Source of the DNA: Rhodoblastus acidophilus
Lineage (GTDB): Bacteria; Pseudomonadota; Alphaproteobacteria; Rhizobiales; Beijerinckiaceae
DNA: 64,000 nucleotides
Direction: 5' to 3'
Assembly: GCF_900187365.1 (NCBI RefSeq)
Contig: NZ_FYDG01000001.1
Location: 62,001 to 126,000 of the forward strand
Shown here: positions 35,858 to 39,480 of the stretch, piece by piece
Layout: each line of letters starts with the position of its first letter
Numbering within the stretch: position 1 is the stretch's first letter
The notes under the pieces: generated by a model
Told to the model about the DNA's origin: nothing
Seen by the model: only the letters and a program-made list of their open reading frames with translations
The model's database searches: none
Made by a program: the position numbers and the translations under genes

Positions 35858-36346
35858 ATGCGCGTATTGGTTTGCCTGCTGGCGCTGGCCGCTTTCGCTA
35901 TTCCCGCCCACGCCGCGCCGGCCGCCGTTTTTCCCGCCGTCTTCATCAATTCCTCGCCGCAGCCGACCTCGCCCGAGGAAACCGAACGCGTCAAACGGAT
36001 GGATGCGGCGCTGGCCAAGGCCCTGGCGGAGTCGGGCGCGTTCCAGCCCGTCGATCTCGCGCCCGTCGCCGCCGATCTCGCGGGGGTGCGCGACATCCAC
36101 GATTGCAACGGCTGCGAGGTCGATCTGGCGAAAAAGCTCGGCGCCCGCTACGCCGTCGTCGCCTGGACGCAAAAGGTCAGCAGCCTGATCCTCAACCTCA
36201 ACGTCCGCATCGCCGATGTCGAGACCGGACAGGCGGTCAAGGCGGGCAGCGTCGATATTCGCGGCGACACCGACGAGGCGTGGCGGCGCGGCCTGGCCTA
36301 TCTGCTCAAGGAATATGTTTTGCCCGCGAAACCTCAGCTGAGATAG
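35858..36346 (+). CDS. Exported DUF2380/DUF3280-like protein
   Basis: A 162-residue protein with an N-terminal signal peptide (RVLVCLLALAAFAIPAHA) and a mature domain AVFPAVFINSSP...ARYAVVAWTQKVSSLILNLNVRIADVETGQ. This resembles periplasmic DUF2380/DUF3280 proteins of methylotrophic and rhizobial bacteria, function unknown. DCNGCE contains a Cys pair. AGAAGGA precedes the ATG, 25 bases after the epimerase stop, so they may be co-transcribed. Its end overlaps the convergent protease gene by 13 bases. Confidence 0.65.
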   Translation: MRVLVCLLALAAFAIPAHAAPAAVFPAVFINSSPQPTSPEETERVKRMDAALAKALAESGAFQPVDLAPVAADLAGVRDIHDCNGCEVDLAKKLGARYAVVAWTQKVSSLILNLNVRIADVETGQAVKAGSVDIRGDTDEAWRRGLAYLLKEYVLPAKPQLR

Positions 36347-37206
36347 GCGATCCGCTCCCAGGTTTCGGGATGGCTGTTGAGCGCGCTGCCGGCATGGGCG
36401 CCCATCGGCTGCGGCGCACGCCCGGTGTGGAACAGTTCGAGCTTGCACAGGGCGTCGGCCAGCGCGCCGGGGCGCTCGATCAGGTCGAGCGCGCGCAGGT
36501 CGGCGGCGAGTTCGCGCACCCGCGACAGCGCCGAAATCAGCAGACGCGCCAGCATTGGCGCATGGGCGAGCAGCGTGTTGCCGTCGTCGCGGGGCGCCAG
36601 TTCGGCGATGGCCTGCCGCACCAGTTCCGCCCAATTCAGGGAATCGCCGTCGCAATGCAGGATATGCGCGACCTCATGCGCGAAAATGCCGGCGATCTCC
36701 TCGCGCGACAGGCCGCGCAGCAGATCCCGCGTCACCGAGATGCAGGCGTTGCGCGGATTGCCTAGCGCATAGGCGTTCATGCCGGAAAAAGGCAGCAGAT
36801 AAAGCTCGGGAATGCGCGACAGGCCGGCGCGGCGGCAGATGACCAGCAGAATAGCGTAAAGATCGGGCGCCTCGGCGCAACGCAGCGGACGGGCGCCGAA
36901 ATCGCGCAGCGCGTCAGCGGGGCGACGCGCCGCCGCCTGCAAGGTTCGCGTCAGATTGACGAGGGCGGGCGCGCAGCCGGCGCGGGGCTGGCTGGCGCAC
37001 AAAGCCAGCAGGCCGGCGAGCCCCGCCTTGATCTGATCGCTCTGATGGGAATGTTTGAGATGCAGCAGGGCGCGGCGGATGAGCGCCGCCTCGTCGCGCG
37101 GGCGGGAGGGCCGCGCCAGCGGCCGCTTCCCAGGGTCGCCCGCGCCGCGCGCAGCGAGAAAAACCGACTGCGCATCGAGGGCCGGCGCGCCTACGCCTTG
37201 GAGCAT
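36334..37206 (-). CDS. M48-family zinc metalloprotease, apparently soluble
   Basis: A 290-residue protease. The zinc motif HEVAH is at residues 177-181, the third ligand Glu232 in the SRVRELAADLRALDLI helix (HtpX/Ste24-type ExxxD). PELYLLPFSGMNAYALGNPRNACISVT before it matches the M48 edge strand. HtpX proteins carry two membrane helices between HExxH and the third ligand and two at the N-terminus; here those parts are short and charged, so the enzyme looks cytosolic. A GGAGGTG ribosome site and a promoter with a palindrome lie just upstream. It is downstream of the 164-residue and Gln/Gly-rich genes on the same strand. Confidence 0.82.
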   Translation of the reverse strand: MLQGVGAPALDAQSVFLAARGAGDPGKRPLARPSRPRDEAALIRRALLHLKHSHQSDQIKAGLAGLLALCASQPRAGCAPALVNLTRTLQAAARRPADALRDFGARPLRCAEAPDLYAILLVICRRAGLSRIPELYLLPFSGMNAYALGNPRNACISVTRDLLRGLSREEIAGIFAHEVAHILHCDGDSLNWAELVRQAIAELAPRDDGNTLLAHAPMLARLLISALSRVRELAADLRALDLIERPGALADALCKLELFHTGRAPQPMGAHAGSALNSHPETWERIAYLS

Positions 37207-37222
37207 GCTTCACCTCCAGTCA

Positions 37223-37256
37223 CTGTATTGTTATACAGCAACTGAAAGTTCAGCAA
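37223..37256 (-). promoter_or_regulatory. Promoter with palindromic operator upstream of M48 gene
   Basis: On the minus strand TTGCTG (37251-37256) and TATAAC (37230-37235) are possible -35 and -10 boxes with a 15-base spacer. The -10 overlaps a perfect palindrome CTGTAT-TGTT-ATACAG at 37223-37238. This is one of the few AT-rich spots here and suggests that the protease has its own repressible promoter. Confidence 0.4.
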
Positions 37257-37317
37257 GCGTCATGCCACCATCAGGCAAGCTACGGAGTTAAAAGCTCAAT
37301 TTTTTGTGAGCCGTGTG

Positions 37318-37812
37318 TCAATGCTGTGACACCCGGTCCTCGTCCTGCGGCGGCCGCGCGGCGTCGATGGCGAGGCGCGACGGCACGGACGCCGGGGCCG
37401 GCAGGCGGTGATCCTCCAGCCGCTGAATCGTGATGGCGCGATAGACATGGAACAGCAGGGTGAACGCCTGCGCGTAGTCGCGCGCCGCCAGCGCGCGCGC
37501 CGCCCCCGCCAGCAGGGGCGCGCAATTTTCGAGGTCGGAAAATTCTTCGGAATGGGCGTCCAGATAGGCCGTCAGCCGGCGCAGACTGTCGGCGCCGAGA
37601 TCGCTGACCAGCGCGACGGCGGCGAGCGTTTCGACCGAGGATTGGCCGTAAACCCCGAGCGCGGCCGCCTGGGGCGAGCGGTTCTGGATGCGCTCCAGAA
37701 TCGGCATGATTTCCTGCAGCACGGCCGTGAGTTCGCGCAGATCCTCATGCGCGTTTTCCATCGGGCGCGACGGCGTCTGTTGCGAACCGGATTCGACGTT
37801 GGAACGAGACAT
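37318..37812 (-). CDS. Uncharacterised 164-residue helical protein of the Gln/Gly-rich cluster
   Basis: Not recognised. No signal peptide or membrane helix. Residues 25-45 (LRELTAVLQEIMPILERIQ) form an amphipathic helix that resembles the 17-residue motif repeated in the neighbouring Gln/Gly-rich protein. The middle (AALGVYGQSSVETLAAVALVSDLGADSLRRLTAYLDAHSEEF, ALAARDYAQAFTLLFHVYRAITIQRLEDHR) is all helical; the ends are disordered. An excellent AAAGGAGC ribosome site precedes the ATG. It may be an adaptor binding its neighbour; that is inference. Confidence 0.75.
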   Translation of the reverse strand: MSRSNVESGSQQTPSRPMENAHEDLRELTAVLQEIMPILERIQNRSPQAAALGVYGQSSVETLAAVALVSDLGADSLRRLTAYLDAHSEEFSDLENCAPLLAGAARALAARDYAQAFTLLFHVYRAITIQRLEDHRLPAPASVPSRLAIDAARPPQDEDRVSQH

Positions 37813-37845
37813 CTATAGCTCCTTTCACACCGCTTGAGTTCGGGA

Positions 37846-37869
37846 GCGGACGGGACGCATCCCGTCCGC
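37846..37869 (-). terminator. Hairpin between Gln/Gly-rich gene and 164-residue gene
   Basis: GCGGACGGGA (37846-37855) pairs perfectly with TCCCGTCCGC (37860-37869), loop of four. No U-run on the minus strand, so it may attenuate or protect mRNA ends rather than terminate, and would set the ratio of the two proteins. Confidence 0.45.
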
Positions 37870-37890
37870 CCGCGCCGCCTGAAGCGCGGC

Positions 37891-38586
37891 TTAGAACAGC
37901 CGCTGCTGGCCGGACTGGCCGGCCTGGCCGCCCGAGAGAGCTTCGCTGACCTGCCGGACGATCTCCTGCACGTCCTGCTGGGTGACCTGCTGGCCCCCGC
38001 GCTGCTGCTGCTGCCATCCGGTCTGCTGGAAGGGAGACTGCTGCTGCGCGTTGGCGTTGCCATAGGCGCCGAGGCCGGCGCCGCCGGACCAGCCCTGCTG
38101 GCCGCCCAGCGAATTCTGCTGGGTGGACTGCAGGATCACCGGCAGAATCTGCCGCACGATCTCGTTGACGTCCTGGGGCGACAGGGTGCGTTGCTGGCCG
38201 AAACCGCCGCCGAACGCGGCCAGCGGCTGAACCTGTCCCTGTTGCGCCTGGGCGATGAGTTGCGGCAGGACCGGCGCGATCTGCTGCAGGATGGCGCTCA
38301 CGTCCTGCTGGCTGAGCTGGCGCTGCTGGCCCCAACCCTGCTGGCCCGAGCCGCCCTGGCCAAATCCGCCTTGGCCAAATCCGCCTTGGCCGTACACGCC
38401 CTGGCCGTACGCGCCTTGTCCCAAACTTCCTTGCCCCACGCCGCCTTGGCCCTGGCCAACGGCCCCGAAGCCCTGCGGGTTCTGGGACTGCTGCGCCAAC
38501 GCCTGCGCTATACTTTGCAAAAGCTGTGGGTTCTGCTGTATCGGGTTCTGGAATGCGTTCGATTGCGAGTGTTCGGAATGTATCAT
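37891..38586 (-). CDS. Gln/Gly-rich low-complexity protein with three 17-residue motif repeats
   Basis: Not recognised. A 231-residue protein without signal peptide, extremely rich in Gln and Gly. Residues 44-88 are about nine GQGGF/GQGxY-like pentapeptides. A motif of the form LSxQDVxxIxxQIxPVL occurs at 91-107, 135-151 and 201-217, separated by disordered G/Q/N linkers. The motif is an amphipathic helix; the whole looks like a self-associating, prion-like or condensate-forming scaffold. The ATG at 38584-38586 has AGAGGAAAG upstream. A 13-base palindrome AACAAA-T-TTTGTT (38685-38697) lies in its upstream region. Base use follows the neighbours, so recent transfer is not indicated. Confidence 0.8.
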   Translation of the reverse strand: MIHSEHSQSNAFQNPIQQNPQLLQSIAQALAQQSQNPQGFGAVGQGQGGVGQGSLGQGAYGQGVYGQGGFGQGGFGQGGSGQQGWGQQRQLSQQDVSAILQQIAPVLPQLIAQAQQGQVQPLAAFGGGFGQQRTLSPQDVNEIVRQILPVILQSTQQNSLGGQQGWSGGAGLGAYGNANAQQQSPFQQTGWQQQQRGGQQVTQQDVQEIVRQVSEALSGGQAGQSGQQRLF

Positions 38587-38742
38587 GACGATCTTTCCTC
38601 TCTTCTCGACGCCGCCAACGGCGGGACGCATGAAATAGAGAGAGAAAGTGTCCGAAAGGTGATTGTCACGCTTGTCCGCGAATCAACAAATTTTGTTCTG
38701 ACGACCCCATTTTTTACTTCTTGGTCCAGTTTTCGGCGCGAA

Positions 38743-39399
38743 TCATGGCTGCGGCGTCATGCGCATATATGACTTTTTTGCGACAAAGCCTTTCGGGAAC
38801 ATCTTGCCGGCTTCCTCGTCCGATACGCTGTTCTGGATGATGACGTCGTCGCCGGGACGCCAGTCCGCCGGCGTGGCCACTTTGTGAGAATCGCTGAGTT
38901 GCAGCGCATCGATGGCGCGCAGGATTTCATCGAAATTGCGGCCGACCGCCATCGGATAGATGAGCACCAGCCGGATTCTCATTTGCGGGTCGATGATGAA
39001 CACGTTGCGCACGGTCTGGTTGTCGGCCGGCGTGCGGCGCGCGGGATCGCCTGAAATGGTGGCCGGCAGCATGTCGTAGAGCTTCGCCACCTTGGCGTCG
39101 GCGTCGGCGAGAATGGGAAAGTCGGGCGCCGCGCCCTGGGTTTCGGCGATGTCGGCGGCCCAACGGGCGTGATCGTCGAGCGGATCGACCGAGAGGCCGA
39201 GAACCTTGACGCCGCGCTCGGCGAAGCGTTGCGAAAATCGGGCGACGGCGCCGAGTTCGGTGGTGCAGACCGGCGTGAAATCCTTGGGATGGGAAAACAG
39301 CACCACCCAGGCGCCCGCGGCCCAGTCGTGGAAATGGATGGGTCCTTGCGTGGAGTCCTGCGTGAAGTCCGGTGCGATCTCGTTGATATTCAGAGCCAT
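38743..39399 (-). CDS. 1-Cys peroxiredoxin (Prx6 class)
   Basis: A 218-residue thiol peroxidase. The peroxidatic Cys45 is in SHPKDFTPVCTTELG, with Thr42 and Pro43 of the Prx active site; no resolving Cys is obvious, and the long C-terminal domain (MRIRLVLIYPMAVGRNFDEILRAIDALQL, ATPADWRPGDDVII) marks the Prx6 class. AGGAGGC sits 5 bases before the ATG. It lies upstream of the Gln/Gly-rich cluster on the same strand, 156 bases away, so co-transcription is possible but not certain. Confidence 0.93.
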   Translation of the reverse strand: MALNINEIAPDFTQDSTQGPIHFHDWAAGAWVVLFSHPKDFTPVCTTELGAVARFSQRFAERGVKVLGLSVDPLDDHARWAADIAETQGAAPDFPILADADAKVAKLYDMLPATISGDPARRTPADNQTVRNVFIIDPQMRIRLVLIYPMAVGRNFDEILRAIDALQLSDSHKVATPADWRPGDDVIIQNSVSDEEAGKMFPKGFVAKKSYMRMTPQP

Positions 39400-39480
39400 A
39401 GCCGCCTCCTCCGCCCCATCTGGCGGCGGCGGAGGACGTTGCAAAGCTGCGCCGCGATCAACTCTTGTTGAAGCCGCCGC

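Follow-up and report, generated by a model that had tools for sequence, protein, structure and literature searches.

Introduction

The closest described systems each resemble one side of the locus considered here. The PopC/PopD pair of Myxococcus consists of a subtilase without a signal peptide and a dedicated partner; HtpX proteases, and FUS-type domains together with bacterial condensate scaffolds, offer comparisons for a metalloprotease and for a low-complexity protein, respectively. Our locus lies on the minus strand of a 64,000-nucleotide stretch of Rhodoblastus acidophilus DNA (contig NZ_FYDG01000001.1, positions 62,001 to 126,000; hereafter the window) and encodes a glutamine- and glycine-rich (Q/G-rich) repeat protein, QG, a small protein, P, and a zinc metalloprotease of the M48 family. 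These are real genes, and they form one module, whose members come and go together. We tentatively favour a reading, serious but falling somewhat short of probable, in which a QG scaffold, P and a controlling protease make up one functional module. We know of no described system of this make-up, and no description of it was found in an open-access library, from which most subscription papers are absent.

Results

Conservation of the module

QG, P and M48 stand side by side in all 28 loci collected, three from Rhodoblastus and 25 of Bradyrhizobium type, so that the genes are neighbours in related genomes, a point on which an earlier note on this DNA, made from the window alone, had let its interpretation depend. 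The Bradyrhizobium-type loci come from 24 of the 25 P-positive Bradyrhizobium-group genomes and from one metagenome-assembled genome (MAG; locus L019); genome G1298, in which the QG match adjoins the P match, was left out. In Rhodoblastus the genes run QG, P, M48; the Bradyrhizobium type has M48, QG, P, followed, where present, by a subtilase of family S8. The three open reading frames (ORFs) lie at the positions and on the strand that the note had given, with the following features (the last two belong to the surroundings of the module):

37891..38586, minus strand: QG, 231-residue Gln/Gly-rich protein with three helical repeats; orthologs in 28/28 module loci
38320..38478, minus strand: QG residues 37-89, Q/G spacer with spaced Phe, Tyr and Trp (GQGxY/F), defined by composition
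38266..38316, minus strand: QG repeat 1, residues 91-107, helix by sequence pattern
38134..38184, minus strand: QG repeat 2, residues 135-151
37936..37986, minus strand: QG repeat 3, residues 201-217, degenerate
37318..37812, minus strand: P, 164 residues, predicted helical (low-confidence model), C-terminal His invariant in a 28-row alignment
36334..37206, minus strand: M48 zinc metalloprotease, HtpX-related, without predicted membrane helices (PF01435, hydropathy)
36664..36678, minus strand: HEVAH zinc motif of M48
36329..39480, no strand assigned: segment missing in sister genome G005 (M48, P, QG and peroxiredoxin), an insertion or deletion unit
38743..39444, minus strand: peroxiredoxin within the segment missing in G005, module membership unproven

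Among the genomes searched, P was found in 3 of 41, all three being among the 11 of Rhodoblastus, and likewise in 3 of the 397 family members; QG occurs in the same three Rhodoblastus genomes. When contigs were scanned with the P alignment, six loci emerged: three from MAGs, one each from Bradyrhizobium valentinum and B. algeriense, and one from R. acidophilus MO (genome G006, already among those three). P is present in 25 of 265 genomes of the group formed by the genus of B. valentinum (G1063), here called the Bradyrhizobium group. Of 97 genomes of this group searched for QG, 9 gave a match, exactly the nine P-positive ones of that sample (compared by hand); therefore, neither gene occurs without the other in those 97. 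Among 385 sampled genomes of the class, the only P found was that of the window, no P or QG was found on the plasmids searched, and no QG relative was confirmed on the viral contigs searched. The genome searches score only the best first-look candidates, and the absences are accordingly not absolute. Short low-complexity matches to the QG profile in G018 and in 7 more of 297 genomes of the order (E 2e-6 to 9e-4) were not counted.

The surroundings of the module vary. By blastn, the 4-kb flanks sort into 15 groups upstream and 16 downstream over the 28 loci, numbers that divergence can inflate and that include flanks cut by contig ends. In the sister genome G005, 58 bp between a gene for a domain of unknown function and phoH replace window positions 36329-39480.

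QG is a constrained protein with three repeats

QG contains 62 Gln, 44 Gly and 8 Asn among 231 residues, has a net charge of -1, and is the only one of the 315 stop-to-stop frames of at least 100 residues in the window with at least 20% Gln and at least 12% Gly. Its spacer, residues 37-89 (24 Gly, 13 Gln and 6 aromatic residues per 53 residues), lies N-terminal to three 17-residue motifs, which begin at residues 91 (LSQQDVSAILQQIAPVL), 135 (LSPQDVNEIVRQILPVI) and 201 (VTQQDVQEIVRQVSEAL, degenerate). The three copies had already been seen in the window protein, and a pattern search found exactly three in each of the 28 orthologs, which is more than chance would give; conservation of the motif was a second point on which the note had let its interpretation depend. 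The repeats begin with [LVM][ST]xx[DE], a pattern that we read as helix-capping-like, and a Pro follows the hydrophobic stretch in repeats 1 and 2. All 28 proteins end in QQRxx and keep a net charge of -1 to +1, with 20-27% Gln, 12-21% Gly and 6-11% aromatic residues (in L051 and L062, where the start pattern was not found, the protein was taken from the first aligned residue). The omega values of QG, 0.07-0.28 over 11 pairs (Nei-Gojobori, as throughout), indicate purifying selection, and comparison with those of M48 and S8 given below shows QG to be constrained at least as strongly as the enzymes.

All matches of QG to Pfam and NCBIfam models were below the cut-off. The earlier note had listed nine GQGxx pentapeptides, a figure that has to be corrected to 8 overlapping or 7 non-overlapping ones. 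Its term 'prion-like' fits loosely: the protein is rich in Gln, Gly and aromatic residues but poor in Asn (8 of 231), and in composition it resembles a FUS-type spacer more closely than the Q/N prion domains of yeast.

M48 is a relative of HtpX and probably soluble in Rhodoblastus

The window M48 scores 70.6 bits against PF01435 (cut-off 20.3) and thus belongs to this family. The HExxH zinc motif and the third Glu are intact in all 28 orthologs (HEVAH and RELAAD in the window), and omega is 0.14-0.42 (11 pairs). No hydropathy peak of membrane-helix height was detected in the window protein with a Kyte-Doolittle threshold, no dedicated predictor being used; motifs and hydropathy thus bear out the earlier description of a protease with HEVAH and the third Glu but without the membrane helices of HtpX. 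Identification as HtpX itself was rejected, since the best NCBIfam score is 81 bits versus a cut-off of 369 and the membrane-helix peak is missing. The ortholog in the third Rhodoblastus genome, G007, has one weak peak. All 25 Bradyrhizobium-type enzymes have one strong peak approximately 122-123 residues before HExxH, and some have a weaker one after it.

Two M48 genes on plasmids were also seen. A lone module-type M48 (L070:6055-6828, plasmid pCB82_1 of Bradyrhizobium sp. CB82), with 80% identity over 270 residues to the M48 of L022, lies among transposase and integrase genes, with no QG, P or S8 in the 12.8 kb viewed, and is probably a module remnant. On an Agrobacterium plasmid (L071:3978-6050), an HtpX-type M48 stands beside a trypsin-like protease. 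Upstream are three Hsp20 genes and genes for FtsH and a PsiE-family protein, so that here too, within a proteostasis cluster, M48 is paired with a serine protease.

P is a small, predicted helical protein

P matched no Pfam or NCBIfam family at E<=0.1, its omega is 0.07-0.40 (11 pairs), and its C-terminal His (H164) is invariant in all 28 rows. The claim that P carries one helix similar to the QG repeats held in part, being weaker than had been stated. Under a strict QG-repeat profile the helix reached shuffle fractions of 0.05-0.15 in the three Rhodoblastus proteins and 0.16-0.84 in the three Bradyrhizobium-type proteins tested, which is not significant, whereas under a BLOSUM-smoothed profile the N-terminal helix was the best site in 28/28 P, with a median shuffle fraction of 0.064.

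S8 subtilases and Q/G-rich proteins elsewhere

An S8 subtilase comes next after P in 23 of the 25 Bradyrhizobium-type loci and is lacking in L058 and L061. The enzyme scores 113.5 bits against PF00082, its Asp-His-Ser triad is intact in 22/22 readable cases (L019 was left out of this count because of an unread residue and a Ser region in another frame), and omega is 0.13-0.39 (8 pairs). The window genome gave no S8 match of the Bradyrhizobium kind, and weak S8 matches were found in 7 of the 11 genomes of the genus.

A tblastn search of plasmids with the Bradyrhizobium S8 gave 17 records, the best two being from Streptomyces (37% identity over approximately 74% of the query). Four of the 17 were inspected, the two from Streptomyces and one each from Paracoccus and Agrobacterium. 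Directly upstream of S8, a Q-rich protein is encoded in both Streptomyces loci. The S8 proteins there (L069:4839-6425 and L074:5635-7413) have Thr or Ala in place of the catalytic Ser and Asp in place of the oxyanion Asn, and are apparent pseudoproteases, which hints that binding can matter more than cutting. No Q/G-rich ORF was found in the approximately 11 kb available around each of the more distant Paracoccus (L072) and Agrobacterium (L073) S8, which show 27-31% identity.

A search of 299 genomes of the phylum returned one strong S8 homologue, in G1562, and it adjoins a Q/G-rich repeat protein. The family of G1562, probably betaproteobacterial to judge by EarP-EF-P-like neighbours in L092, has this S8 in 26 of 145 genomes, and a Q/G-rich ORF adjoins it in 25 of 27 loci; the two misses, L112 and L120, have just 524 and 770 bp upstream of the S8 match. 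In all 21 loci available with long flanks (L092 and 20 others whose flanks were extended), a Q/G-rich ORF lies at most 2.5 kb upstream of S8 on the same strand, with none farther away in 205,668 bp. Most of these S8-linked proteins repeat, as read by eye, a LAPQGWFGN...GGAIGG...LLPF unit. A small I9-like ORF stands between repeat protein and S8 in 16 of the 21 loci by a narrow pattern, and by similarity it has partners in up to 19 other loci. The S8 loci of this family contain no P and, except for one weak match in L133, no M48. QG with M48 and Q/G-rich proteins with S8 together mean that the link between a Q/G-rich protein and a protease recurs across two unrelated protease families.

The repeats themselves were compared using the window QG-repeat profile. 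Shuffle fractions for the Q/G-rich proteins were 0.37 (L106), 0.05 (L117), 0.15 (L098) and 0.74 (L092), with 0.33 and 0.71 for the two from Streptomyces and 0.19 for that of G1583. Among the 21 S8 tails, two low values were obtained (L122 and L139, each 0.007), which are only suggestive because 21 tests were made. What supports the wider theme of Q/G-rich proteins beside proteases is the homology of the S8 enzymes, together with composition and gene order. The L120 protein, encoded upstream of the second S8 of G1583 and cut by the contig end, was considered as a bridge to QG and rejected (profile value 0.29); by eye, it has two units such as ITPQGLLDQLVQTIMPTVLPSI that resemble the window repeats. 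The S8 proteins of L121-L140 and L092 have long tails, 18 of 21 ending in Trp, and some tails (L123, L125, L131 and L132) carry LAPQ/LSPQ-like motifs, as found at the repeat starts of the neighbouring Q/G-rich proteins. A hydrophobic residue followed by His forms the C-terminus of both 25/25 Bradyrhizobium-type P and 21/21 S8-linked repeat proteins of this family; it may be a shared recognition tail or a coincidence.

Neighbouring genes in the window

On the minus strand, the transcription order is peroxiredoxin, QG, P and M48, with gaps of 156, 78 and 111 bp. A Shine-Dalgarno-like AGAGGAAAG, read by eye, precedes the QG ATG at 38586, and the start position is the same in the other two Rhodoblastus QG; a promoter and terminator scan yielded no more than shuffled sequences did. 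Peroxiredoxin and PhoH lie directly upstream of the module, as the note had placed them, PhoH being outside the segment missing in G005. The peroxiredoxin, which is inside that segment, is a possible passenger: it lies near the module in R. acidophilus MO (G006), but a search of the 20-kb G007 locus did not find it. In G006 (L008:10762-11517), a pentapeptide-repeat-like gene, with no counterpart there in the window, stands between QG and peroxiredoxin. Also near the module of this strain is a 1379-residue ORF of short ALSTAQIAAL-like repeats (L008:12362-16501), overlapped by an antisense ORF of 1242 residues.

Discussion

From these results, a model of the module may be proposed. QG would be a cytoplasmic, self-associating scaffold with three short capped helices as its stickers; flexible spacers of Gln, Gly and aromatic residues, almost without charge, would connect them, so that the multivalent chain could form a condensate or a filament. 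P, a small helical protein, would co-assemble with QG, and the protease would cleave QG, P or both, or be held and controlled by them; proteolysis could then set the amount of scaffold or the timing of its disassembly. The enzyme differs by lineage, being a probably soluble M48 in Rhodoblastus, an M48 with one predicted membrane helix, mostly accompanied by a subtilase, in Bradyrhizobium, and a subtilase without M48 in the distant proteobacterial family. The fixed number of three repeats, the strong constraint on QG, its near-zero charge and its flexible Q/G spacer with aromatic residues suggest a multivalent scaffold. P and M48 are constant in 28 loci and S8 partners Q/G-rich proteins elsewhere; hence the simplest function common to these loci would be that of a protease that acts on the assembly or is held by it. 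A cytoplasmic site is suggested by hydropathy, without a signal-peptide predictor, since QG, P and S8 have no N-terminal hydrophobic segment. A role in stress response or in conflict with phages or rivals would fit such a patchy, movable module. The earlier note had proposed a scaffold, an adaptor and an enzyme. Scaffold and enzyme best fit the architecture, the selection on QG and the recurrence of Q/G-rich proteins with proteases; the adaptor role of P would rest on the borderline helix similarity.

Several points weigh against this model. Self-association of QG, a protease-substrate relation, contact between P and QG and the role of P are inferred, the condensate scaffold from composition and the protease-substrate relation from genomic linkage. 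The similarity between the P helix and the QG repeats is borderline, the AlphaFold models of P are all-helical but of low confidence (predicted local distance difference test, pLDDT, 64 and 63; a deeper run gave no gain, 63 versus 64), and the first of them matched no PDB fold at E<=0.001. The window QG repeats show no detectable homology to those of the S8-linked proteins. As the Streptomyces S8 proteins lack the catalytic Ser, the link there is not one of ordinary subtilase cleavage, and since the S8 of L072 and L073 have no Q/G-rich neighbour, the partnership is not general to S8. Finally, the empty site of G005 is compatible with either an insertion in the window genome or a deletion in G005.

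An unlikely alternative is that QG is a polyprotein precursor, cut by the protease between its units, perhaps at the QQR junctions that precede repeats. The freed peptides, amphipathic helices in the window or glycine zippers in the S8 type, would act on membranes or as signals, and P or the I9-like protein would hold the enzyme in check. Repeat units with conserved boundaries and the conserved QQRxx end are consistent with this, as are the I9-like ORF of the S8 loci, the two to four units seen by eye in most S8-linked proteins and the resemblance of S8 to models of maturation proteases (mycosin, QhpE and PatA, all under the cut-off). However, precursors usually vary in copy number, whereas the repeat number is fixed at three in 28/28 QG; the window-type helices have approximately zero net charge, and in flanks that were not systematically annotated no gene for a transporter or for immunity was recognised that accompanies the module. 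We consider it quite unlikely that the module serves defence or conflict, with a QG/P assembly that senses infection or stress and releases or concentrates a protease, which then cleaves targets in the cell. Proteases held by assemblies are a known theme in bacterial immunity, and the patchy distribution, changing flanks and empty site agree with such a role, but no sensor domain was recognised and PADLOC (E<=0.01) gave no match for the three window proteins. For their relatives it returned only a generic subtilase model (Bradyrhizobium S8) and a weak Cas11e match (E 0.0019, Bradyrhizobium QG). On these results, a known anti-phage system was rejected.

That QG is a secreted or surface structural protein, matured by proteases outside the cytoplasm, is improbable. 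Q/G-rich repeats do resemble structural proteins and S8 enzymes are often exported, yet the missing N-terminal hydrophobic segments (the internal peaks of S8 and of one P are weak) argue against export, as do the lack of a membrane-helix peak in the window M48 and the cytoplasmic orientation of the HtpX catalytic domain. We regard as very improbable the ordinary explanation, namely a stress protease lying by chance beside an unconstrained low-complexity protein. Proteases of the M48/HtpX type are indeed common (1259 plasmid records had some match), but a chance neighbourhood is rejected by the 28/28 linkage and the co-occurrence of QG and P. The two gene orders, the 15 upstream flank groups, the purifying selection on QG and the uniform repeat number and protein ends speak against it as well.

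A broader proposal, possible but more doubtful than that of a scaffold controlled by a protease, is that there exists a widespread, movable class of modules in which an intracellular Q/G repeat protein forms a condensate or filament and is combined with a controlling protease that is interchangeable (M48, M48 with S8, S8, or a Ser-less S8 that only binds); the window would hold its minimal M48 version. Genes for proteases or protease-like proteins repeatedly adjoin Q/G-rich proteins in two phyla, and in 28/28 loci a protease gene accompanies QG and P, neither of which scores above any Pfam or NCBIfam cut-off, so that 'hypothetical proteins' gain a testable partner. If the protease controls an assembly, proteolytic control of condensates or filaments could be studied here in bacteria and with simple genetics.

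Comparison with known systems

The module, together with Q/G-rich proteins beside a different protease in unrelated bacteria, suggests an undescribed kind of protease-linked protein assembly. Like PopC/PopD, the module includes in Bradyrhizobium an S8 protease that has no apparent signal peptide and is encoded beside putative partners, but those partners are a Q/G-rich repeat protein and P, and the window genome has no matching S8. With HtpX the window M48 shares HEVAH and the third Glu, and HtpX models give its top NCBIfam scores; it nevertheless falls far under every HtpX cut-off (245-422 bits), and the module M48 is tied to QG and P and has one membrane-helix peak in the Bradyrhizobium type. 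The S8 clusters of the other family (L092, L094-L140) likewise place a Q/G-rich repeat protein beside an S8 homologous to that of Bradyrhizobium, although their repeats are mostly glycine-zipper-like. With FUS-type domains and bacterial condensate scaffolds, QG has in common the Q/G spacer with its spaced aromatic residues, near-zero charge and short sticker-like elements; it differs from them in its three conserved repeats, their fixed number and the protease linked to it.

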